Made by a program: the position numbers and the translations under genes. From a bacterium (GTDB lineage: Bacteria > Armatimonadota > Chthonomonadetes > Chthonomonadales > JAMCWF01), in the NCBI GenBank assembly GCA_021842405.1, contig JAKBZR010000032.1, forward strand, positions 1 to 33,817: a DNA stretch of 33,817 nt, read 5' to 3'. The notes beneath the pieces were generated by a model. It worked only from the letters and a program-made list of their open reading frames with translations. It had not been told where the DNA came from and ran no database searches. Below, one piece after another: positions 9,194 through 33,817 of the stretch (position 1 is its first letter; each line of letters begins with the position of its first letter).

Positions 9194-9196
9194 GTA

Positions 9197-9279
9197 GAAA
9201 GAGTTCAGTTCTACGGGAATAATTTACGACCGTATTGGATGCACCCTCCCGCTCCCCCCCCGTAAACGGGGGGAGCCCG
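9197..9279. repeat. copy 3 of the shared motif joined to a GC-rich hairpin
   Basis: Bases 9197-9218 are the exact reverse complement of 30682-30703 (22 of 22). They are followed by a hairpin with arms GCTCCCCCC and GGGGGGAGC (9251-9276). The unit ends directly against the outermost CRISPR repeat, so it may mark where the old end of the array was cut off. Confidence 0.5.
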
Positions 9280-9309
9280 GTTTCAATTCCACCCTGGTTC
9301 GATTAAAAG
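9280..9309 (-). CRISPR. isolated degenerate CRISPR repeat, outermost remnant
   Basis: This 30-bp copy differs from the array consensus at one position (C for G in CCACGCTGG). It lies 4.5 kb from the intact array and has no second repeat within spacer distance. It marks the far, presumably oldest end of the array. Confidence 0.8.
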
Positions 9310-9416
9310 CACCAAATTGTATGGCCAGAGCAGTTGGATTCCAATTTAGGTTAAACACGTTTGATCCTTTTATGGTTGTTGATCGCTGCTTCAGTATCGT
9401 GCGCCATTCTATCCCG

Positions 9417-10949
9417 TTATTCGCACAGCCGACGCACACCCAGGTCTTTTATCTCAACACTACCGCGATCAATGAACAGCGCCACCGACGGGGCGGTCTG
9501 GGTCGCGCTTTCCACGGGTACGGTGAGGGTCAGGATGTCATCGAGGTACACCTCGCAGCGGGGACGACGGATGACCACCCGCATCCGGTATGGCACGCCG
9601 TAACCGATCGTCACATTGCGCTTGGCCATCGGTTGAAACCCGGGCAATGAGGAGGCAAGTGCACATTGTTCTGCGGCATCCAGCGCAAACACTTCGTCGT
9701 TTTCAGCGTGCAGCCGTTCTCCATTCGCGGTTACCGCGAGGCCGGCTGCTACGCCGGAATGCAGCGTAATCGTTGCGTTGATCTCCATGTTGCGCGAGCC
9801 GATGCCCAGATACGCCAGTTGCCAGCCCGACCGGGCTTCACCCCGGTAAATCCCCTCGTTTAACCTCCAGCGACCGCAAGAGAGTCCACCACTGCTGTGG
9901 GTCGCGGGCAGGGAATGAATGGCGGGCGCATCGTTCTTCACCAACGGCGGTCCCTGATACCAAGCTTGGTTCTTGTCGCTGTATTTCAACCGCAACCTGC
10001 CGCCGGATATTGTCGTGGGTTCCATCGGCGGGGAAAGCGTGACGCTTTGAGTGAAAAACACGTAACGCTTTCCTCGAAACACCACACTTCGGCAACTCAA
10101 CCCACAAGACCAGTCGGGACCACAAAACAGGGTGTTGTCGCCTTCAAGCATCCGATAAGGCCCCTCCAGCTTGTCGGACACGGCGTACAACGTACCGCAA
10201 GCGGCATGTTTGTCTGAATACACCCCGCGCCCGCCATGCTGGTTGGATGTCAGGCAGGTCAGATACCACCGGCCATCGAGGAAATACACGTCCGGCAGCT
10301 CCACCTCGCCGCCGCCCCCCGGTACAAACGCAGGAGGAAGTTGCCGCCAGTGCACCAAATCCTCGGACTGCGCGACGCCGATGACGTTGGACTCGGATTC
10401 TTCTTCCGCCGTGATGCACGTTGCGAAAAAACCCGTCCACCCTTTGCCGGCCGGATTGCGCACGACGATCAGGTCCCGGCAATCCACCTTGTTCCGCGGC
10501 ATGGGATTGGCGTACCCGCGATAGAAAGTATCGTCCGGTACGATGACTGGATTGCCGGGATATCGCCGCCAGGTGATCAAGTCATCGCTCAGGGCCAGTC
10601 CGATGCGTTGACTGCGCCCGTTATCCCGGCTGGAGCGCATGGTGTAATACAGGTAGTATTGCCCCTCGTGTTCCACCGCACAACCGGTCCAGGAATGTAG
10701 ATCGTCGAGAGTGCCCGGCTCGTTGGGGCCGAGCAGGATCGGAAGTTCACGCCAGCGGACCAGATCATCGGTGACCGCGTGCCCGAGGAAATCTTCCTCG
10801 GGTTGCGAACGGTGTGAACCTGCCGCCCACCGTTGCAGGTGAAACATATGCACTTGCTCATTGCGCGCTAGGTACCAGGTATCCCACATGTTCATTCCGT
10901 CGGGCCGGTAGCCCGGCACCATCAAGGGCACAGAGGAATCACTGCGCAT
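9417..10949 (-). CDS. GH32-like beta-propeller glycoside hydrolase family protein
   Basis: The 510-aa protein looks like a clan GH-J type enzyme: an N-terminal five-bladed propeller followed by a beta-sandwich (about residues 370-510). Candidate acidic residues are Asp23 in MWDTWYLA (place of the nucleophile), Arg158-Asp159 in DCRDLIV (transition-state stabiliser) and Glu217 in EVELPDVYF (acid/base). Repeated SDDL-x-W/W-R motifs are typical of these propellers. Sucrose- or fructan-like substrates are usual for GH32, but the classical NDPNG motif is missing, so the substrate is open. No signal peptide is visible. AGGAG lies 8 bp upstream of the ATG. The gene sits between two CRISPR repeat remnants (9280-9309 and 11049-11078) and looks complete, so it entered or was joined to an old part of the array. 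Confidence 0.65.
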   Translation of the reverse strand: MRSDSSVPLMVPGYRPDGMNMWDTWYLARNEQVHMFHLQRWAAGSHRSQPEEDFLGHAVTDDLVRWRELPILLGPNEPGTLDDLHSWTGCAVEHEGQYYLYYTMRSSRDNGRSQRIGLALSDDLITWRRYPGNPVIVPDDTFYRGYANPMPRNKVDCRDLIVVRNPAGKGWTGFFATCITAEEESESNVIGVAQSEDLVHWRQLPPAFVPGGGGEVELPDVYFLDGRWYLTCLTSNQHGGRGVYSDKHAACGTLYAVSDKLEGPYRMLEGDNTLFCGPDWSCGLSCRSVVFRGKRYVFFTQSVTLSPPMEPTTISGGRLRLKYSDKNQAWYQGPPLVKNDAPAIHSLPATHSSGGLSCGRWRLNEGIYRGEARSGWQLAYLGIGSRNMEINATITLHSGVAAGLAVTANGERLHAENDEVFALDAAEQCALASSLPGFQPMAKRNVTIGYGVPYRMRVVIRRPRCEVYLDDILTLTVPVESATQTAPSVALFIDRGSVEIKDLGVRRLCE

Positions 10950-11048
10950 TTCAGTTTCTCCTGTTTCTCAGCGCATCGCGGGACGCCGTAATTCGATCGT
11001 TTCCGTTTTCCATTCGCAACGCTAATCACCCGCATCCGCGCCAACCTC

Positions 11049-11149: not shown

Positions 11150-11161
11150 CAGGTGCGTCCC

Positions 11162-11190
11162 TTGTTGAGCGGAGACCATTCGCTCAACAA
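11162..11190. repeat. perfect 10-bp inverted repeat at the cassette end
   Basis: TTGTTGAGCG (11162-11171) and CGCTCAACAA (11181-11190) form a stem with a 9-nt loop. No T-run follows on either strand at the right place, so it is not a standard terminator. Its position beside the 12-bp direct repeat suggests an element end or recombination site. Confidence 0.5.
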
Positions 11191-11192
11191 TC

Positions 11193-11226
11193 AAAAAATT
11201 AGGTGGTTGGGATCGAACGCCCACCT
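11193..11226 (-). terminator. terminator of the 202-aa membrane protein gene
   Basis: In minus orientation AGGTGG pairs with CCACCT (outer arms 11221-11226 and 11201-11206), followed by AATTTTTT. The hairpin overlaps the stop codon region of the gene by less than a base and ends its transcription unit. Confidence 0.5.
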
Positions 11227-11835
11227 TTACTCCCCGTGTCCAAGAAGGTGTGGGTTGTCGTGTACGATCTGCCTCCACGCTTCATCCCACCTATTGTTGG
11301 TAGCATGAAGTAAAAATACGTTATCTCCTATTGCTAACCATGTTGCATGATGTAATCTCGTAAAAGTAAATTCATCAAATTTAGATTCCTTAAACTTATA
11401 AATACTAAAAAATAAATAATTCTCTCGCGTTAGTTGACCATCTCCAAACTTCTCTCCAACTATTTCTAGACAGTAATGATCTAAATCTTGAGCTTGATAT
11501 GATAGATGAAGAAGTTTATTTAATGCTTGCATGCTTACCCCATCTTTTTCGTTCCCACTATTATCAGGACCGTACTTACATTCATCACTTTGTAATGCTT
11601 TATCTCTTATATTCCTAAATTGCCCTCTGGATGGATTAGTTTGAATTAGAATCATTCCTACTAATATCAGAATGAAAAAAAACCAATGCCACCCTCGATT
11701 TTTTTTATCGGCCATCTTCTGAATTGTGGCCGATAAATTCTGAATTGTCGCCGATACTTTTCGCTTACCCTCTCGAAACTTAGCTATATTTTCAGCTAAA
11801 TCATCGAGTATTTTATCTTTTTCCTTGTCGTCCAT
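11227..11835 (-). CDS. 202-aa single-pass membrane protein, unknown
   Basis: I do not recognise this protein. It has a charged, probably helical N-terminus (residues 1-48) with a tandem heptad SATIQNL/SATIQKM (28-41), one transmembrane segment (about 50-65, WFFFILILVGMILI), and a soluble C-terminal domain of about 135 residues rich in aromatic residues and His (FTRLHHATWLAIGD, LLHATNNRW). Lys/Arg before the segment suggests that the N-terminus is in the cytoplasm. GGAG lies 8 bp before ATG 11835. Base composition is far more AT-rich than the cas or hpn genes. It lies alone inside a spacer-like interval of the array and has a coiled N-terminal part plus membrane anchor in common with the operon to its right. 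Confidence 0.65.
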   Translation of the reverse strand: MDDKEKDKILDDLAENIAKFREGKRKVSATIQNLSATIQKMADKKNRGWHWFFFILILVGMILIQTNPSRGQFRNIRDKALQSDECKYGPDNSGNEKDGVSMQALNKLLHLSYQAQDLDHYCLEIVGEKFGDGQLTRENYLFFSIYKFKESKFDEFTFTRLHHATWLAIGDNVFLLHATNNRWDEAWRQIVHDNPHLLGHGE

Positions 11836-11930
11836 TTTTAGTCTCCTCTAAAAATTATTTTAGCTCACATTGTCCAAATTCGTGGACTAATGCTACCTAT
11901 CCCATTCCAAAATCAAAAATTTAATTTGGG

Positions 11931-11961
11931 GGTTGGGATCGTTCTGCGTTCGATTCCAACC
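11931..11961 (-). terminator. possible terminator hairpin between the small-protein operon and the 202-aa gene
   Basis: In minus orientation GGTTGG pairs with CCAACC and ATCG with CGAT, with one mismatch between. An AT-rich stretch with TTTTT follows about 12 nt later, which is further than ideal. It would end transcripts entering from the array or membrane operon. Confidence 0.3.
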
Positions 11962-11987
11962 TGACACCCGGCAATCAGGTGCGTCCC

Positions 11988-12083
11988 GTTTCAATTCCAC
12001 GCTGGTTCGATTAAAAGCGAGAATGCCAGACAAACCAAACATTTTGCCCTCCAGTTTCAATTCCACGCTGGTTCGATTAAAAC
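11988..12083 (-). CRISPR. detached repeat-spacer-repeat unit with a spacer also found in the main array
   Basis: Repeats lie at 11988-12017 (perfect) and 12054-12083 (last base C instead of G). The 36-nt spacer between them (12018-12053) is identical to the spacer at 15477-15512 in the intact array. The neighbours differ, so it is a copied unit, not an assembly of the same place twice. Confidence 0.9.
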
Positions 12084-12085
12084 AT

Positions 12086-12322
12086 CTAGAAAGGGGGTCG
12101 TTGAATGCGATAGAAATATTTAATCCTTGCAGCGTCATTTGGATATTTGAGCTCCAACTTCTTTACGGCTGGCCCTTCGCGACGCCAATCCCGCATGTCT
12201 GGACTATATGCGGCTAAAAAGCTCCAAAAACAAAATTCAAAGAGCTTTAATGCTATAAATAATACTATCACAAGACCTATCACGCAGCCACAACCCCTCA
12301 AAGCAAAAGATTTTATTTTCAT
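12086..12322 (-). CDS. 78-aa membrane protein, last gene of the array-embedded operon
   Basis: The N-terminus MKIKSFALRGCGCVIGLVIV and following residues form one long hydrophobic segment (about residues 9-38) that could be a transmembrane helix or uncleaved signal. The remaining 40 residues are charged (SPDMRDWRREG, KKLELKYPND). No family is recognised. ATG 12322 is preceded by GGAG 10 bp upstream; a TTG one codon earlier is less likely. The stop codon lies only 2 bp from the CRISPR repeat at 12054-12083, so the 3' end may have been trimmed when the gene block and array were joined. It starts 24 bp after the 53-aa gene. Confidence 0.5.
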   Translation of the reverse strand: MKIKSFALRGCGCVIGLVIVLFIALKLFEFCFWSFLAAYSPDMRDWRREGPAVKKLELKYPNDAARIKYFYRIQRPPF

Positions 12323-12346
12323 CAAAGATTATCTCCATCTGTTGCC

Positions 12347-12508
12347 TCAAGGCAAGAAATGCTGAAAAACTTTGATCGCCGAAACCCATGCTTGTCTTCG
12401 AACCGCATAGGTAATTAAATCGCCCCTAAAGAGCGCCTGCACCCATCCCAATTTACTGCCTATCTGATAGAGCGTCGCTCTTCCTATATAGATACTAAAC
12501 CAATCCAT
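12347..12508 (-). CDS. 53-aa small protein in the array-embedded operon
   Basis: The frame starts MDWFSIYIGRATLYQIG and ends with FLP, then TGA. It overlaps the preceding gene by 14 bp, and AAGGAG lies upstream of ATG 12508, inside the end of that gene. It has alternating hydrophobic and basic residues (GWVQALFRG, AVRRQAWVSAIKVF), suggesting an amphipathic, membrane-associated helix. No family is recognised. Tight packing within the operon is the main support. Confidence 0.5.
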   Translation of the reverse strand: MDWFSIYIGRATLYQIGSKLGWVQALFRGDLITYAVRRQAWVSAIKVFQHFLP

Positions 12509-12857
12509 TTCTTCGATTCTCCTTTATAATTGCTATCCGTTTTTCCGCTTCCGAAACTTGTTCATCCCAATCAAAATGATAATTTTCTTTGAAGCGACAC
12601 ATTCCATAAAAAAATCCAAGCACTGCTCCAACTGGAATTAGTGGCGGAATAATACAAGCTATAAGCCCAAAAAATATGATATTACAAGTGACACAATTTC
12701 CCCAATAATGGGCAATCATCGCTTGCTGAAAATATTCCAGCGCGCCTTCTGCCTTTTTGATTGCTCTATCGGCGTTTCGGTAGTTTAATTCAACCGCTTT
12801 TTCGGCGTAGTCAATTTTTTTAATGACTGAGTTAAAATGCGCTACTCCTATTAACAT
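12495..12857 (-). CDS. 120-aa membrane protein, third paralogue-like gene
   Basis: Layout: an N-terminal helical region (residues 10-50, including IDYAEKAVELNYRNADRAI), a hydrophobic double-span region (about 56-86, IIFFGLIACIIPP then VGAVLGFFYG), and a charged helical tail (98-115). This is the same order as in the two genes before it, so the three are probably old duplicates, though sequence identity is low. It overlaps the upstream gene by 7 bp, which implies translational coupling. Function unknown. Confidence 0.6.
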   Translation of the reverse strand: MLIGVAHFNSVIKKIDYAEKAVELNYRNADRAIKKAEGALEYFQQAMIAHYWGNCVTCNIIFFGLIACIIPPLIPVGAVLGFFYGMCRFKENYHFDWDEQVSEAEKRIAIIKENRRNGLV

Positions 12858-13321
12858 TGGCGTTTCTCATTTTCTTTTAGTGCATCTTCAAGTATGGAAT
12901 ATTGTCTTTCCAATTCCTCATACTGTTTACGCTCTGCTGGATTTTTACTTCTCCTCTTTTTATTGGGATCAGCATGGGCCCAACCAATGAAAGCTCCTGA
13001 AATTGCGCCAAACCAGGCAAAAAACTGGTCTTGAGGTTTCAGGGTAATTGTGCAGGAGAGTATGTGATCTGCCCATGTCCAACCACTGAAAGTGTCTGGA
13101 AGTGTGATAACAACGGCAAAAAAAAGGCCAATAAGACAACCTAATCCAGTACATCGCCATGTACGTTTCGACGGATCCTCATATGTCCCGGTCTGCTTAA
13201 AATTATCAAGAGCAGGGCCTACTTTAACCAAATTTCCCCAAGCTCTGCTTAACTGATTGGACTGTATGTTTCTATACGCTTCATCTAGCTCTAGCTTAAT
13301 TTCACGAGCATCCATCCTCAT
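12851..13321 (-). CDS. 156-aa membrane protein, second paralogue-like gene
   Basis: An N-terminal helical region (residues 1-42) precedes two hydrophobic spans (about 57-75 and 99-115) and a very basic linker (KKRRSKNPAERK, 121-132) that leads into a coiled-coil-like tail (ERQYSILEDALKE, 138-150). The tail resembles ERKYFQIENKL in the upstream gene. The basic linker should lie on the cytoplasmic side, which places both the N- and C-terminal helices inside the cell. ATGA overlap with the upstream gene and 7-bp overlap with the downstream gene show one operon. No family is recognised. Confidence 0.6.
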   Translation of the reverse strand: MRMDAREIKLELDEAYRNIQSNQLSRAWGNLVKVGPALDNFKQTGTYEDPSKRTWRCTGLGCLIGLFFAVVITLPDTFSGWTWADHILSCTITLKPQDQFFAWFGAISGAFIGWAHADPNKKRRSKNPAERKQYEELERQYSILEDALKENEKRQC

Positions 13322-13680
13322 CTCCTTAGCTTCTTTTGCTGCAGCTTATTTTCAATTTGGAAATATTTTCGCTCCAATACCTCGAAGCGATGGTCTATTT
13401 GATTGCCAGCCAGTGAGTTTCTAACTGACCCGGCAAACGTCCAGCCGATCGCTATTCCCGGAATTGCGCCAACCAAACCGACAAAAGCACCCAACAACCC
13501 GCCAACCAGCGCGCATCCGGCTTTCCATCCAACGAGATTCTGACTGATCTCGGCGTGCTTAAAATCGCTAAGGTAATGGCGGATCTCTTTCAAGCGGGCT
13601 TCCGCCCTCCCTAGATTTTCACTGTTGTCAATATCTTCTGAGATATAGTCCAACTGATTATCGATATCACGGTAGTTCAT
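13318..13680 (-). CDS. 120-aa membrane protein, first gene of the array-embedded operon
   Basis: The protein has a helical N-terminus (residues 4-48), a glycine-rich hydrophobic hairpin (about 52-86, with GALVGG-like spacing: CALVGGLLGAFVGLVGAIPG), and a basic coiled-coil tail (97-120, ERKYFQIENKLQQKK). Glycine-zipper hairpins of this kind are seen in pore-forming or membrane-remodelling proteins, but also in many harmless ones, so no function is claimed. AAGGAG precedes the ATG. A TATAAA (13719-13724 in minus orientation) may be its -10 box; no good -35 box is visible. The gene starts 121 bp from the first repeat of the intact array. Confidence 0.6.
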   Translation of the reverse strand: MNYRDIDNQLDYISEDIDNSENLGRAEARLKEIRHYLSDFKHAEISQNLVGWKAGCALVGGLLGAFVGLVGAIPGIAIGWTFAGSVRNSLAGNQIDHRFEVLERKYFQIENKLQQKKLRR

Positions 13681-13801
13681 TTTTACTCTCCTTAGAAAAA
13701 AATTTTTGAAACGATAGATTTATAGGCGCGAGAAATCGGCCAATAATCTAAACCGGTTATAGGTCATCGCGAGTGCCCAGCCGTCCTCCTCCACCGCCGC
13801 G

Positions 13802-16800
13802 GTTTCAATTCCACGCTGGTTCGATTAAAAGCAATTTACAAGAAACTGCTGTTTGGAACGCTCGCAAAGTTTCAATTCCACGCTGGTTCGATTAAAAGGG
13901 CGCGTTAAATTTTTTCTGGGGTCATTGACATTGTAATAGGTTTCAATTCCACGCTGGTTCGATTAAAAGTTCACTCTAGGTGTTCATGGTGTTTACCTCT
14001 ATCGCTAGTTTCAATTCCACGCTGGTTCGATTAAAAGTGGTAGTCAACGATTGGTGCAATGCGCGTGTGGCCGTTTCAATTCCACGCTGGTTCGATTAAA
14101 AGGGCTATATTCGCGCGGGTGATGACGTGCCCAAAGTGTTGAGTTTCAATTCCACGCTGGTTCGATTAAAAGCCTGATGGCGCTTGTGGTCGCTTGGTTG
14201 TTCCCGTTTTTGGTTTCAATTCCACGCTGGTTCGATTAAAAGTAGATAACTAAAATCACTAATAATACCACAACCGAACTGTTTCAATTCCACGCTGGTT
14301 CGATTAAAAGTGACTTGCAACAGCAAAATCGGAACGCCCAAACTGGGTTTCAATTCCACGCTGGTTCGATTAAAAGTCCCGGTAGTGAAAATAAGGCTGG
14401 TGCGGGACGGCTCGGTGTGTTTCAATTCCACGCTGGTTCGATTAAAAGGATTGACCCAACGAGGCAGAGTCGGAACGGCTTGATTTCGTTTCAATTCCAC
14501 GCTGGTTCGATTAAAAGGTTACGAAAAACCGGCTGGAAACCGAAGACTAAAAAATAAGTTTCAATTCCACGCTGGTTCGATTAAAAGTGGGTCCAGGATT
14601 GGGACCAGCATTCATGGCAGTATTTTGGGTTTCAATTCCACGCTGGTTCGATTAAAAGTATGTAGAATAGATGTATACCGAACGGCGCCGGGTAAATGTT
14701 TCAATTCCACGCTGGTTCGATTAAAAGCCTCGATGCAACCGTCACCGATGTATGGCGCAGGATGGTTTCAATTCCACGCTGGTTCGATTAAAAGACCTAC
14801 ATTCTCATTCCTTGCAGGAATTTGGATAAGTTTCAATTCCACGCTGGTTCGATTAAAAGGTCAATACCGGAAACTGACGAAGGAAAGGATGATGAAAGAG
14901 TTTCAATTCCACGCTGGTTCGATTAAAAGACCTAGAAAGGGAATAAAATGAACACTACGTTGTATCGGTTGTTTCAATTCCACGCTGGTTCGATTAAAAG
15001 CTGCTGCTCCCGTTTCGACGGGTAATGACAGTAGTGGAAAGTTTCAATTCCACGCTGGTTCGATTAAAAGGGGATCGGCGATGACGACACGTTTTCCACT
15101 ACAGGGGAGGGTTTCAATTCCACGCTGGTTCGATTAAAAGCGGTAGCTCGATTGCCGACACAATTGCAAGCATTTTCGTTTCAATTCCACGCTGGTTCGA
15201 TTAAAAGATAGTACTAACCGGATTATTTCCTGTAATCGGTTGACCGTTTCAATTCCACGCTGGTTCGATTAAAAGTTGATATGAAGACACGCTTGGAGCA
15301 AGAGCTGGGCGCTATGTTTCAATTCCACGCTGGTTCGATTAAAAGTGATTGCACCGCATTCGGTCAGTGGGTACGACTAAGTTTCAATTCCACGCTGGTT
15401 CGATTAAAAGGAAGGATGTGCTGGTGGGGTGGATTGTTTTGGTAGTGTTTCAATTCCACGCTGGTTCGATTAAAAGCGAGAATGCCAGACAAACCAAACA
15501 TTTTGCCCTCCAGTTTCAATTCCACGCTGGTTCGATTAAAAGTGAAAATGAACATCAGGGATGAAGCGTTGTCGGCGAGTTTCAATTCCACGCTGGTTCG
15601 ATTAAAAGCTGCCTGTTCCAAGGCAGCAGAGATCTCGAAAGAGATTGTCGGTTTCAATTCCACGCTGGTTCGATTAAAAGGGTGCGTGTGCAGTGCGAAA
15701 CTGGCGAGGAATTACAGGTTTCAATTCCACGCTGGTTCGATTAAAAGGTTTGATCCACCAAGTCATTACGTCGATCAATTTTTTAAAGTTTCAATTCCAC
15801 GCTGGTTCGATTAAAAGAGAAAAGTGAAAATCGAGAAAGTTATCGTCGCGTTCGTTGCGTTTCAATTCCACGCTGGTTCGATTAAAAGCGGCTGAAAAGG
15901 TATTGACAGAGTAGGAACTATTAGTTTCAATTCCACGCTGGTTCGATTAAAAGGCGTCTCAATTTCTGACGGATAATACGCAAAGAAATACTTGTTTCAA
16001 TTCCACGCTGGTTCGATTAAAAGGCGCTAGTGACTGGAACGTGGCAACAGGAGGTGCAGGATGAGTTTCAATTCCACGCTGGTTCGATTAAAAGGTTGAG
16101 GCTTTTTCAGCGATAGCAGTAATGGTCAGATTTGTTTCAATTCCACGCTGGTTCGATTAAAAGGAATTATCTTATTACACTATTTTCTACACTTCTCAAC
16201 AACGTTTCAATTCCACGCTGGTTCGATTAAAAGTCGAAAAGATTATCGTCGCATTCGCCGCCGGATTCTTGGCAGTTTCAATTCCACGCTGGTTCGATTA
16301 AAAGCGGAATTAGAAGGGATTAGTTATCTCGCTTCTGTCATAGTGAGGTTTCAATTCCACGCTGGTTCGATTAAAAGGTTGATGGAAATAACCTCAATGT
16401 CGGTGGATATCTGATCGAGTTTCAATTCCACGCTGGTTCGATTAAAAGCTGATGCTGCTTCCCTACTTTGATGGTCAGGGAAAGTTTCAATTCCACGCTG
16501 GTTCGATTAAAAGAACGTTTTATTTCAACCGTTTCTCTACAGCGGCGCGTAGAAGTTTCAATTCCACGCTGGTTCGATTAAAAGGGCACATTTTCAATCT
16601 CGGCTGACGTAGAGGAATGTTTCGGTTTCAATTCCACGCTGGTTCGATTAAAAGGGGTGGAATCGGCGCGGCTACTGGCCTCTCAATCGCGCAAAGTTTC
16701 AATTCCACGCTGGTTCGATTAAAAGTTCTGGATGATGTCGGCCAAAACATCCTTCTTACTTTACCGTTTCAATTCCACGCTGGTTCGATTAAAAGTAGGA

Positions 16801-17346
16801 ATATCAAATCGTTGCCTCTTCCTTTCGATTCACTCAAAGTTTCAATTCCACGCTGGTTCGATTAAAAGAGCCTGCGGCCGGTAACCGGCGGGGCAGAAGG
16901 GATAGTTTCAATTCCACGCTGGTTCGATTAAAAGGAGGAACAGCATGCTCTGATAACTCAGATTCTTGACCATCGTTTCAATTCCACGCTGGTTCGATTA
17001 AAAGTTGCGCAAGGACTGGTGGGATGTTGGCTGTTCAATGAATAGTTTCAATTCCACGCTGGTTCGATTAAAAGGCTGGGAATTTTTAGAGAAGGGTTAC
17101 GCACCGAAGCAGTGTTTCAATTCCACGCTGGTTCGATTAAAAGCAGCGGCATCGGGCGTCAAAGTGAAACCGACGTAGACTTGTTTCAATTCCACGCTGG
17201 TTCGATTAAAAGTTCGTAATGCCAATGCAGTGTTATTATAACTCAGCCTAGTTTCAATTCCACGCTGGTTCGATTAAAAGGACGGACAGAGTGATCATAG
17301 TAGGACGGACGGGAAGGTTTCAATTCCACGCTGGTTCGATTAAAAG
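13802..17346 (-). CRISPR. main CRISPR array, 52 repeats and 51 spacers
   Basis: The 30-bp repeat reads GTTTCAATTCC at its start and GATTAAAAG at its end on the plus strand. I count 52 copies starting every 65-73 bp and saw no variant copy; spacers are 35-43 nt. Read on the minus strand the repeat ends in ATTGAAAC, the usual 8-nt 5' handle of type I-B and III crRNAs, so transcription should run leftward. The leader and promoter next to cas2 agree. Spacers nearest 17346 are then the newest. Two spacers (15818-15858 and 16234-16274) are related to each other, and the one at 15477-15512 is identical to one in the detached unit. Confidence 0.97.
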
Positions 17347-17452
17347 CCCTAAATCTGGACGTCCCAACTGCTCCCCACTCTACCTGCTACAGCATATCAC
17401 AACCATCTAAAGAAATCAACCCCTGAATCGGGATTTTTTGTCCTTCGGGGGC
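17347..17452 (-). promoter_or_regulatory. CRISPR leader with promoter
   Basis: The minus strand has TTGATT (17414-17419), a 17-bp spacer and TATGCT (17391-17396), giving a start near 17384, about 38 nt before the first repeat. The stretch lies between array and cas2, on the side expected for a leader. A CCCC/GGGG hairpin with loop T-run (17420-17451) sits upstream of the promoter. Confidence 0.65.
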
Positions 17453-17506
17453 AAAAAGAGTCGTCACCCTCCCTCGTGGCGACCGGCTATCGGAGGTAGA
17501 CGACTC
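17453..17506 (-). terminator. terminator of the cas operon
   Basis: In minus orientation GAGTCGTC (17499-17506) pairs with GACGACTC (17458-17465), with further pairing of ACCTCC inside, and is followed by TTTTT (17453-17457). It lies 10 bp after the cas2 stop and separates the cas message from the array promoter. Confidence 0.8.
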
Positions 17507-17516
17507 GCGCGGAGGG

Positions 17517-21746: not shown

Positions 21747-22246
21747 GCTCCTCCTTTCTTGAACTGACCCTCGCCAAATCCGATCAGAGCCTCGAAATGC
21801 GGCATAAAGCCATCCAGGAAGTCGCGCTCGGTCCTTACTGCCTCCACATTGCGGCGGATAAAATCGTGGAAGGCACAGGGGATCTTGGCTTGCTGCGTTT
21901 TGTTCAGGGAATACGCCGCAGCCGCATCAAGTCGCAGAAAATCTGCGCGGATGTCCTCCCATGTGGCTGCACCGGCGCGCAGTCTGGCCTCAAGTGCCCG
22001 ACAATGACTGAAGAACCGCCGTACCTGCGTTGACGTAAGCCCGTACTGCCCAAGTTTGTCAGCGAGATTTTTCATGCGATCACGGCGTACCAGATCAAGC
22101 CGTAGGTTTCCCGCCTCATCGAAATAGCCGTCCTTTAGGTAGCTCGGCCAGATTTGATCGAGCGACTTTTGCGGATCGTTGCCTGATCGAGACGGATTTC
22201 CACCCCGGCCTCCCTGTTGATTCTGGTAACCCCGATTATGTTCCAT
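21743..22246 (-). CDS. csm2: type III-A small subunit Csm2
   Basis: From ATG 22246 the protein has 167 aa; AAAAGGAGGAGAGG just upstream decides this start over a longer frame from 22348. A Gly/Gln/Asn-rich N-terminus (MEHNRGYQNQQGGRGG) precedes the helical Csm2 fold, with LTSTQVRRFF (start of the conserved helices) and KTQQAKIPCAFHDFI. Csm2 lines the inner filament of the Csm complex and contacts target RNA. It overlaps the end of cas10 by 11 bp. Confidence 0.88.
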   Translation of the reverse strand: MEHNRGYQNQQGGRGGNPSRSGNDPQKSLDQIWPSYLKDGYFDEAGNLRLDLVRRDRMKNLADKLGQYGLTSTQVRRFFSHCRALEARLRAGAATWEDIRADFLRLDAAAAYSLNKTQQAKIPCAFHDFIRRNVEAVRTERDFLDGFMPHFEALIGFGEGQFKKGGA

Positions 22247-23939
22247 CCTCTCCTCCTTTTTGTTCGCGAGTGGCCAGCAATGCGTAGCGCGCGATTGCCG
22301 ACAGGTAGATCGTTTCGATATTCCTCCCTTTCTCAAAATCGGCTGCAATTTGATTGGCCCAACGTCGTAACGCCTGCTTTTCAGGGCTTGGGTCGTTCTC
22401 TTTCGGATAGTTCCGGGTGATGTGGTAGGACAGGCGGGCGCTGCTCAGATGATTCGTTTCTCTTTGGAGTCCGTCAGGCAGGAATGAAGCAGAATAACAC
22501 GAACCGCTGCTCAGATGACTCGTTTCTCTTTGGAGGGTGAAACGCAGCAGGTCATGCAGCCAGCCGCGCTCGGCCGAGTTGTCTCTTACCCATTTGGTTA
22601 AGCATCGAGCGTGATGGGCAATGGCTTCATGATTCCGCCACTTCCATATCTGCCCGAAGGCGGCGAACTGATCCTTCGCTTCCGTTGCACCCGGCGCAGG
22701 TTTCGATTTCGCTTCTTGCTCTAGAAGCGCATCAGCCTGCATGACCGCTCGGCGGATCGGATGCTTTTTCTTTACCAACGCCATTCCGCCGCTGATCGTC
22801 AGCTCCAGGTCGCGAAATTCCGCTTGAAAAAGTTGCTGAACGTGAAAAGCAAAGTCAAAGACGATGTTCCACGGGCCAACCAACAGCAGGTCATCGCCGC
22901 CCGAAAACACGGTGTAGATAGAACTCCATTTGGGCTGACGCATCTCTTCATCTAATTTTACGGCGAAGAATTTATCGAGCCGCTGGCTGAATTGAATTAA
23001 CGGCTGCCAATCGCCGGCATCCTTTAGTATGTGGTCTACTGCTTTACCTAGGGAATCCACATCCATTTTTAAGACTCCGAGATAAGGCCCCCCCTCTGCC
23101 TGATCGGCAATATTATCGAAGTCTAGAGGATGGCCTTGATTGTCGGTGGGGATATGCCGTGTGATACGCCTTGAGACGATTTTGGCGCTGCCGTCCCAGC
23201 GGGGTGCTGAATCGGATAAATCAAAGACGTAGCGGGCGGTAGCGGTGTCCGGTTTGTTTGGGTGAAGTGATAATTTCAGCCCGGCGATCTCATACTCACT
23301 CATCCCGTCAGATGGGTCGTGTATCGTCATGAATCGCGATGCAGGCAATATCCTTCCCATTTCGTCGTCCTGCCGGCACATCCAGCAGACCGGAATTTCG
23401 GAGTCTTCATCAGGAATCCGGATGGACGCCGTTGCTAATTGCCGTCGGCAAATGGAGCAAGTTGGGTAAATGGGGTCTAGGTAAATGGGGTCTAAGACAA
23501 GCTTTTCGGGATTCCATTCACCGTTATGAACGGCGATGTTCGCCCAGGGGCGCAGCTTCTCTTTTTGGAGGGCAGTCAAGGCGCGGTTATAGCTTTCCCT
23601 TACGCTGGGAGATTCGGGAACCATACACAGCGCCAATCGGATGCGGGCGCCCACCGTGTCGCGCAGCCATTCTGCCACCACGCCACGCTCGCGCTCCACT
23701 GCTTCTCGATGAGAAGGCTCAAGATCGGGACCGCGCAGCAAAAATTTGCCGGCCGCACTAAAGAGCAGGCAATCATCACCCCACCCGGCGGCGGATAAAA
23801 TGCGGCGGGCCGCCAACTCGGAAAACGCCTGCAAGAAAAAAGAGCGGGCGCGCAGTCGACGGGACTGGCCTCCATGAGAACCGACAATGTCGAGCAGATA
23901 ATCTTGGATTCCGGATACATCTCCTACAATAATAAACAT
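22236..23939 (-). CDS. cas10: Cas10 (Csm1) without HD domain, cyclic oligoadenylate synthase
   Basis: At 567 aa this is much shorter than usual Csm1 (about 750-850). It begins at MFIIVGDVSGIQDYLLD, which in full-length Csm1 follows the HD nuclease domain, so the DNase domain is missing. The zinc ribbon is present (Cys161, Cys164, Cys185, Cys188), as is the catalytic palm motif FSGGDDLL (GGDD 347-350), so it should still make cyclic oligoadenylate when target RNA is bound. Residues 469-490 are partly repeated at 491-500 (LQRETSHLSS and LQRETNHLSS, a 66-bp step), and DPIYLDPIY at 150-158 is another short in-frame duplication. It starts 8 bp after cas4 with GGGGGTGA upstream. Confidence 0.93.
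   Translation of the reverse strand: MFIIVGDVSGIQDYLLDIVGSHGGQSRRLRARSFFLQAFSELAARRILSAAGWGDDCLLFSAAGKFLLRGPDLEPSHREAVERERGVVAEWLRDTVGARIRLALCMVPESPSVRESYNRALTALQKEKLRPWANIAVHNGEWNPEKLVLDPIYLDPIYPTCSICRRQLATASIRIPDEDSEIPVCWMCRQDDEMGRILPASRFMTIHDPSDGMSEYEIAGLKLSLHPNKPDTATARYVFDLSDSAPRWDGSAKIVSRRITRHIPTDNQGHPLDFDNIADQAEGGPYLGVLKMDVDSLGKAVDHILKDAGDWQPLIQFSQRLDKFFAVKLDEEMRQPKWSSIYTVFSGGDDLLLVGPWNIVFDFAFHVQQLFQAEFRDLELTISGGMALVKKKHPIRRAVMQADALLEQEAKSKPAPGATEAKDQFAAFGQIWKWRNHEAIAHHARCLTKWVRDNSAERGWLHDLLRFTLQRETSHLSSGSCYSASFLPDGLQRETNHLSSARLSYHITRNYPKENDPSPEKQALRRWANQIAADFEKGRNIETIYLSAIARYALLATREQKGGEDGT
22440..22540. repeat. in-frame 66-bp step duplication inside cas10
   Basis: CTGCTCAGATGATTCG at 22441 recurs with one change at 22507, and similarity extends through TTTCTCTTTGGAG in both. 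The step of 66 bp equals 22 codons, so the frame is kept. Confidence 0.75.
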
Positions 23940-30505: not shown

Positions 30506-30671
30506 AAATCCTCCTTATAGCTTTAATACGACGGTCTGACTTGTGCAGATAAAGAATCGGTGGGTATTAGTTGTAATATCAAACGCGCTGCCCAGCGATT
30601 CCTCTTTCATTTACCATCGGGGGCATGATTGATATGCTATCTCGCCCCCTTCTCATTTTCAATCTTTTCAA

Positions 30672-30703
30672 CGAAAATCACTCCCGTAGAACTGAACTCT
30701 TTC
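30672..30703 (+). promoter_or_regulatory. copy 4 of the shared upstream motif
   Basis: TCCCGTAGAACTGAAC with flanking CTCTTTC (30682-30703) is an exact inverted match to 9197-9218. It ends 15 bp before the -35 box of the VWA operon. Preceding bases CGAAAATCACTCC also match 1102-1114. Confidence 0.5.
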
Positions 30704-32502: not shown

Positions 32503-33817
32503 ATGGACAATAGAGCGCGGGGTGCCCTAAAACGGATCATCTCACAAGACGGCAATATCCAAAGCGACCCGCGCCGCTTGAAGTCGCTGCTGAGAGACTA
32601 TTGCCCGCAGCTTCGCCTGGAGGTGAACGTACTGGTCGCCGCGGTGGAGGAGGGCGCGCCAGGCGAGCTCCTTTCGCCGTCGAACGGAGCATCGAAGTCA
32701 TTCACACTATCTCGATTGGTAAAGAAGCTGATTGAGGAGCGGGGGTTATCGGCCGAGGCCGCTCAATGGGCGATTGAGAGCTGGGCGCTGGCGCTGGACG
32801 TGGTTTCGGACGGCGAGATATCAAAGAGTGAAGTATCCCCGACCAAACCACCCGTTGCGCCGGTTCCCTCTGCACCGGCAGGGCAATCGAAGGTGGTAAA
32901 CGGCGATGGATTGCAGGCCGGCGCTCTCTGGCCGATGTTCCACGGTAATGTGCGCCACACCGGGTTAAGTCCTTATGTCGGCTCTCAGACCGGCAGTCTG
33001 AAGTGGAAGTTCCAAACGGGGGGTAATATCTACTACTCCTCACCGGCGATCGGCGCGGACGGCACCGTCTACGTTGGGTCACAGGACGGTTACCTTTACG
33101 CCCTCAACCCGGACGGCAGCCTGAAGTGGAAGTTCAAAACGAGGCATATGATCGCCTCCTCACCGGCGATCGGTTCGGACGGCGCCGTCTACGTCGGGTC
33201 ATGGGACGGTTACCTTTACGCCATCAACCCGGACGGCAGCCTGAAGTGGAAGTTCCCAACAGGGCGTTCTGTCTCCTCCTCACCGGCGATCGGTTCGGAT
33301 GGCGCCGTCTACGTTGGGTCATTTGACCATTACCTTTACGCCCTCAACCCGGACGGCAGCCTGAAGTGGAAGTTCAAAACGGGGAATGATATCCACCCCT
33401 CACCGGCGATCGGTTCGGACGGCACCGTCTACGTTGGGTCAAGGGACGGTTACCTTTACGATCGGAACCCGGACGGCAGCCTGAAAGGGGAATTCCAAAC
33501 GAGGGATTATATCGCCTCCTCCCCGGCGATCGGCGCGGACGGCGCCGTCTACGTTGGGTCAAGAGAGGGTTGCCTTTACGCCCTCAACCCGGACGGCAGC
33601 CTGAAGTGGAAGTTCAAAACGGGGGATGGGATCACCTCCTCACCGGCGATCGGCGCCGATGGCACCGTCTACGTTGGGTCAGATGACCATTGCCTTTACG
33701 CCCTCAACCCGAACGGCAGATTGAAGTGGAAGTTCAAAACGGGGAATGATATCCACTCCTCACCGGCGATCGGCGCCGACGGCGCCGTCTACGTGGGGTC
33801 AGTGGACGGTTACCTTT
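32503..33817 (+). CDS. PQQ-like beta-propeller repeat protein with helical N-terminal domain, incomplete
   Basis: The frame starts at ATG 32503, directly after the phosphatase stop, and is still open at the window end (438 codons seen). Residues 1-105 form a helical domain (ALKRIISQDG, LRLEVNVLVAAVEEG, SAEAAQWAIESWALAL). I recall similar domains in front of varied repeats in bacterial signalling proteins, but cannot name it. A Pro-rich linker (107-130) follows, then LWPMFHGNVRHTG, a usual entry into PQQ-type propellers. From there 40-aa blades repeat: SLKWKF, SSPAIG-DG-VYVGS, YLYALNPDG. No signal peptide is seen, so it is probably not a periplasmic quinoprotein; a sensor or scaffold role with the phosphatase is inferred. 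Confidence 0.8.
   Translation, partial: MDNRARGALKRIISQDGNIQSDPRRLKSLLRDYCPQLRLEVNVLVAAVEEGAPGELLSPSNGASKSFTLSRLVKKLIEERGLSAEAAQWAIESWALALDVVSDGEISKSEVSPTKPPVAPVPSAPAGQSKVVNGDGLQAGALWPMFHGNVRHTGLSPYVGSQTGSLKWKFQTGGNIYYSSPAIGADGTVYVGSQDGYLYALNPDGSLKWKFKTRHMIASSPAIGSDGAVYVGSWDGYLYAINPDGSLKWKFPTGRSVSSSPAIGSDGAVYVGSFDHYLYALNPDGSLKWKFKTGNDIHPSPAIGSDGTVYVGSRDGYLYDRNPDGSLKGEFQTRDYIASSPAIGADGAVYVGSREGCLYALNPDGSLKWKFKTGDGITSSPAIGADGTVYVGSDDHCLYALNPNGRLKWKFKTGNDIHSSPAIGADGAVYVGSVDGYL
33061..33817 (+). repeat. 120-bp tandem repeats, at least seven units
   Basis: The string CCGTCTACGT occurs at exact 120-bp steps (units starting 33061, 33181, 33301, 33421, 33541, 33661, 33781). Units are nearly identical even at silent sites, except at two small groups of codons, just after KT and in GSxDx. 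Confidence 0.95.

Follow-up and report, generated by a model that had tools for sequence, protein, structure and literature searches.

In CRISPR locus F of Sulfolobus solfataricus, two repeats enclose an 899-bp plasmid-like fragment that in part matches a conjugative plasmid, and insertion sequences or MITEs have also been noted to break up archaeal arrays (PMC4390879). Small genes adjoining CRISPR repeats are known from CreTA-type elements, which are described as guarded by ectopic repeats (PMC9458426). The window analyzed here, 33,817 bp in length, is the entire contig C51 of a draft genome (3.51 Mb in 174 contigs), and its CRISPR array holds, between two repeats, a segment with five open reading frames (ORFs) and the tail of a glyS gene. 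As in Sulfolobus locus F, ~1 kb of non-spacer DNA lies between two intact repeats; unlike in that locus, the intervening DNA bears the tail of glyS together with an orphan membrane-gene cluster, and the array contains another two such segments. The breaking of the array by foreign DNA is shared with arrays interrupted by insertion sequences or MITEs, but an insertion of that type was rejected because no transposase ORF, terminal inverted repeats, or target-site duplication was found at the ends of 12084-13801. CreTA elements resemble the present cluster in that small genes adjoin CRISPR repeats and differ in that the flanking repeats here belong to the array (PMC9458426). A CreTA-like module was also rejected, as the best internal repeat-like match (18/30) equaled that of shuffled sequences and neither a degenerate repeat nor a spacer complementary to the insert was detected. 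Type III accessory effectors include membrane proteins linked to CARF or SAVED domains, and small membrane proteins at a Cas10 locus are likewise found here; however, profile searches detected no CARF, SAVED or other sensor domain in ORFs 1-5, and the genes lie in the array and not among the cas genes. The kind of structure is one already known from Sulfolobus locus F; its new aspects are a cluster of orphan genes, a source locus that can be named and the occurrence of three segments in one array.

The CRISPR-Cas locus and the oversize intervals of its array

The array is built from a 30-bp repeat (GTTTCAATTCCACGCTGGTTCGATTAAAAG) present in 57 copies with at most two mismatches, and it is the sole array of that repeat in the genome; the same repeat family was found in 9 of 291 genomes of the phylum. 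Past the leader the genes follow in the order cas2, cas1, a ring-nuclease-like CARF protein, Csm4, Csm3, Csm2, Cas10/Csm1 and Cas4, and after Cas4 come a DevR-type Cas7, a large protein, Cas3, a small protein and Cas6, making this a combined type I and type III-A CRISPR-Cas locus. Reading of the array proceeds from the right, which makes the left end the old (leader-distal) one. The array comprises the following features:

9310..11048, minus strand: interval I1, with a GH32-like ORF at 9417-10949
11150..11987, minus strand: interval I2 (838 bp), with a 202-aa ORF at 11227-11835 that has a single membrane segment and a weak DUF4359 match
12054..12083, minus strand: leader-distal border repeat of I3, last base changed from G to C
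12084..13801, minus strand: interval I3 (1718 bp), five ORFs and the glyS tail between two repeats
13802-13831: other border repeat of I3, a perfect copy
13802..17346, minus strand: regular stretch of array with perfect 30-bp repeats and spacers of 35-43 bp
17347-17516: leader

All three oversize intervals are situated at the leader-distal end and have three unrelated gene contents, with every gene oriented as array transcription, and zero oversize gaps were observed in the newer 3.5 kb of the array on the right side. The repeats at 12054 and 13802 equal the consensus except for one terminal base, so that I3 is non-spacer DNA between recognizable repeats of one array, as is the fragment in Sulfolobus locus F. 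The spacer at 12018-12053 is duplicated exactly together with its flanking repeats (95 bp, 11988-12082 = 15447-15541, spacer copy at 15477-15512, 3.46 kb apart), as evidence that the old array end has been rearranged; this duplicate is also the sole place where the assembler could have been misled. In a comparison of the spacers with the insert, no match exceeded 11 bases without a mismatch or 14 with a single one. At its left edge (12084-12095), next to the repeat, the insert agrees with the start of spacer 14930 (14930-14941) at 11 of 12 positions, a degree of start match seen in 0 of 1377 pairs of different spacers.

Interval I2 begins and ends with a 12-bp direct repeat (CAGGTGCGTCCC, at 11150-11161 and 11976-11987) that abuts the CRISPR repeats on either side, an arrangement from which an original 'spacer' of 12 bp would follow. 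The hairpins at the I2 ends were inspected by eye as possible integron attC sites, a reading that was rejected because the motifs were absent; furthermore, folding of these ends was not clearly better than that of shuffled sequences. The AlphaFold2 model of the 202-aa protein had a pLDDT of 47. One of the nine phylum genomes that share the repeat family (G034) shows a gap of 495 bp at the old end of its array (L082 5854-6348), with an ORF of ~94 aa that contains one membrane segment and runs in the array direction; because several frames are open in this gap, the parallel to the insert is weak.

The five ORFs and searches for their relatives

The ORFs in I3 are, in the order of their transcription:

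13318..13680, minus strand: ORF1, 120 aa, paralogous to ORF2, with a glycine-rich membrane hairpin
12851..13321, minus strand: ORF2, 156 aa, probably 154 aa with an ATG at 13315
12495..12857, minus strand: ORF3, 120 aa, N-terminal helices, hydrophobic hairpin and charged tail
12347..12508, minus strand: ORF4, 53 aa, preceded by a strong AAAGGAG and lacking a membrane segment
12086..12322, minus strand: ORF5, 78 aa from an ATG (79 aa from a TTG at 12325), one predicted membrane segment

An earlier note on this DNA had described a minus-strand cluster encoding 120, 156, 120, 53 and 78 aa between CRISPR repeats, and both ORFs and repeats were located as claimed. The summed length of minus-strand ORFs of at least 50 aa was 641 aa as compared with a mean of 164 aa for first-order Markov sequences, 0 of 1000 of which reached 641 aa. 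The stop codon of ORF5 opens the insert 2 bp off the repeat, and ORF4 is the least certain coding gene of the five. The AT-richness reported for the cluster was borne out (GC of 42.5% in the ORF part versus about 53% in the flanks), as was its orientation in the direction of the array and cas genes, the five ORFs all being on the minus strand. The overlaps of 4, 7 and 14 bp are present as annotated, but since an AAGGAG abuts the first ATG of ORF2, the second ATG (13315), which has proper spacing, is probably the true start, in which case genes 1 and 2 would lie 2 bp apart. A plausible ribosome binding site had been assigned to every gene; on inspection of the upstream sequences those of genes 1, 2 and 4 were good and that of gene 5 acceptable, whereas that of gene 3 was weak. 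The suggestion that genes 1-3 are diverged duplicates was borne out only for the first two, which are 29% identical over 86 aa with a score that 0 of 2000 class-preserving shuffles reached; ORF1 and ORF2 were thus shown, at the level of sequence, to be diverged duplicates. ORF3 shares their plan but has no detectable sequence similarity to ORF1 or ORF2, as 140 and 257 of 2000 shuffles reached the scores (not significant against either). Modelled in AlphaFold2 together with its two companions, ORF2 gave a structure of low confidence (mean pLDDT 65, pTM 0.45), with high values only in the soluble helices; it placed a helical hairpin at residues 5-45, membrane helices at 50-72 and 96-116, and a C-terminal helix at 128-155. 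A Foldseek search of this model against the PDB returned nothing with an E-value below 2.

Consistent with the earlier statement that no family was recognizable, Pfam, NCBIfam, PADLOC and PHROGs gave no match above cut-off. In PADLOC-DB the only hit was LeoBC to ORF1 (E = 0.035), so that no known anti-phage system was significantly matched, although orphan proteins cannot be typed by homology. The best of the sub-threshold profile matches, DUF6861 to ORF1 (E = 5e-5; 23.2 bits against a cut-off of 28), fell over the glycine-rich hairpin and was treated as compositional. A phage holin was likewise rejected, the best PHROGs match being that of ORF2 to phrog_1350 at E = 0.78 and a further match, at E = 0.5, covering half of ORF3, with no endolysin gene in the insert. 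Homologues of the cluster proteins were found neither in the 291 phylum genomes or 397 relatives, nor near any CRISPR there, nor in IMG/VR, phage or plasmid records, nor in two scans of GTDB species genomes; such single-protein scans detect close relatives only, so distant homologues may exist. Weak matches in the phylum genomes, inspected where loci were given, look like coiled-coil or Gly/Ala-rich stretches of unrelated proteins. Recurrence of the gene set beside CRISPR or defence genes was not observed in the genomes searched, and protein searches of the glyS-downstream regions of order relatives found no trace of the cluster. By every search made, the orphan membrane proteins appear to constitute a new family.

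The glyS tail and explanations for the insert

When the insert was searched against its own genome, a single strong match was obtained (50 bp, 94% identity, E = 2e-14), and the right-hand part of I3 resolves into three features:

13712..13724 (approximate to a few bases), minus strand: 13-bp match (TATAAATCTATCG) to the C47 sequence downstream of glyS, longest common string
13724..13773, minus strand: 3' end of glyS (glycyl-tRNA synthetase beta), 94% identical to G000:C47:6885-6934
13774..13801, minus strand: the 28 bp that separate the glyS match from the repeat

The gene on C47 is one that we take to be glyS from its matches in order relatives and from the general character of the family. 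The tail in the insert is in frame on the minus strand, reading AMTYNRFRLLADFSRL followed by a stop as compared with AMTYNRFKLLADFSRLVAD on C47, and its last codons extend a few bases below 13724; all changes ahead of the stop are synonymous or conservative. The 13-bp match was reached in 0 of 2000 shuffles, and thus homology runs on beyond the end of glyS. The presence of this tail indicates that the cluster formerly lay directly downstream of a glyS gene, and because the tail has diverged from the C47 copy, a relative or an older copy probably served as the donor. The same genome contains the glyS 3' end, and no source locus was found for the cluster itself. The 28 bp at 13774..13801 could continue glyS, with 21 bp deleted in frame, or could be what is left of a truncated spacer.

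The cluster is probably a captured passenger at the old end of the array. The earlier note had weighed a defence cassette carried in the array against a passenger, and the latter is favored because of the glyS tail, the three unrelated old-end gaps and the lack of any homologue beside CRISPR or defence genes, while the defence reading gained no positive support. A ~1.7-kb AT-rich segment from directly downstream of glyS, in the same lineage or a close relative, would have lodged between two leader-distal repeats, bringing the last glyS codons and the small-gene cluster with it. Read-through from glyS may originally have transcribed the cluster, which would now be transcribed mainly as a stretch of the long pre-crRNA and freed when Cas6 cuts both flanking repeats. 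This route of expression is proposed because the genes run in the same direction as the array and no promoter above chance was detected; neither promoter-like nor terminator-like sites were in excess in the insert. Translation of ORFs 1-3 would be coupled through their adjoining or overlapping frames, and the sequences and a low-confidence model suggest that their products may make a small membrane complex, a hetero-oligomer built from a soluble helical hairpin, two membrane helices and a charged C-terminal helix. The cluster would have no part in CRISPR immunity. On the other hand, ORFs would not be expected to stay intact in a long-dead passenger unless under selection, the array direction is common to every gene in the three gaps (a chance of 1 in 8 if random), and this reading accounts for neither the right-hand 28 bp nor the insertion mechanism. 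If the cluster is indeed a passenger, it would be a well-documented case of array-lodged DNA with a nameable source locus (downstream of glyS), and it would caution against taking 'genes inside an array' to be defence genes.

The other explanations differ mainly in how the segment arrived or why it was kept. It is unlikely that the insert is a giant spacer, that is, an overlong fragment integrated by Cas1-Cas2 at the leader end and later pushed to the old end by newer spacers. Cas1-Cas2 measures prespacers of about 30-45 bp, and the regular spacers of this array are 35-43 bp long; also against this reading, the 28 bp next to the right-hand repeat could be a spacer stub, which would point to insertion into an existing spacer. 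The insert and the other two gaps are nevertheless flush with their repeats, with no target-site duplication at the insert, and the start match to spacer 14930 stands out against the other spacer pairs, although by eye it extends no further than the 12 bp. A precedent for a fragment of this type is available in Sulfolobus (PMC4390879). Were the adaptation machinery responsible, the assumed size limit of Cas1-Cas2 would become testable on three examples in one array. We regard as very unlikely the broader proposal that arrays of this repeat family capture whole gene cassettes between repeats, by Cas1-Cas2 or repeat recombination, in the array direction and expressed with the pre-crRNA, with Cas6 freeing each as a messenger. 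Viral contigs were searched for exact CRISPR repeats, through which repeat-mediated recombination could occur, and none was found. If the proposal were true, the array would serve as a gene-capture platform besides its spacer memory.

Retention of the cluster as a membrane-acting defence or accessory cassette, in which a complex of ORFs 1-3 would be expressed with the pre-crRNA and triggered by the type III system or by infection, seems quite unlikely. The small membrane proteins, the intact frames, the shared direction with array and cas genes, and the type III-A module with its Cas10 and CARF-type ring-nuclease-like protein are all consistent with such a role, yet PADLOC gave no significant match, no sensor domain was found in the five ORFs, the cluster was not found near other CRISPR loci searched, and the glyS tail identifies the former neighbor as a housekeeping gene. 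That same tail, in frame with its own stop and with only synonymous or conservative changes relative to the chromosomal copy, would fit the remnant of an integrative element that used the glyS 3' end as its attachment site and carried a copy of the target-gene 3' end, with the AT-rich, orphan cluster as the sort of cargo that elements often carry. This origin is improbable, however, since neither an integrase nor any other element gene is in the insert, a search of IMG/VR did not recover the glyS-tail pattern, and no phage or plasmid was matched. Finally, the joining of short reads across CRISPR repeats or across the 95-bp duplicate could have put unrelated DNA in the array, and both the coincidence of the insert's left edge with the end of that duplicate and the 174-contig state of the genome accord with this. 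We consider such an artefact extremely unlikely, because a linear chromosome needs both contig paths through the duplicate, the edge repeats at 9280 and 12054 bear changes typical of an old array end, and the glyS tail is a diverged version and not the C47 copy.

Further features of the window

The Cas10 of the type III-A module (22236-23939) matched the Csm1 profile only from position 230. In full-length members of the Csm1 family the N-terminal part is the HD region, and given where the match begins, this part seems to be missing from the predicted protein. Halves of a MITE-like repeat, which has dozens of copies in the genome and the terminal inverted repeat AAGAGTTCAGTTCTACGGGAAT, bracket the whole CRISPR-Cas locus at 9195-9272 and 30670-30702, the left half stopping at the terminal repeat at 9280 and the right half lying ~165 bp past the cas6 start. 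The bases flanking the two halves (tctagtag and cctgttag) form no clear target-site duplication, and the locus may have landed within a MITE or may be bounded by MITE ends. At 32991-33817, tandem units of 120 bp in ~7 copies reach the contig end and likely encode a 40-residue repeat protein.
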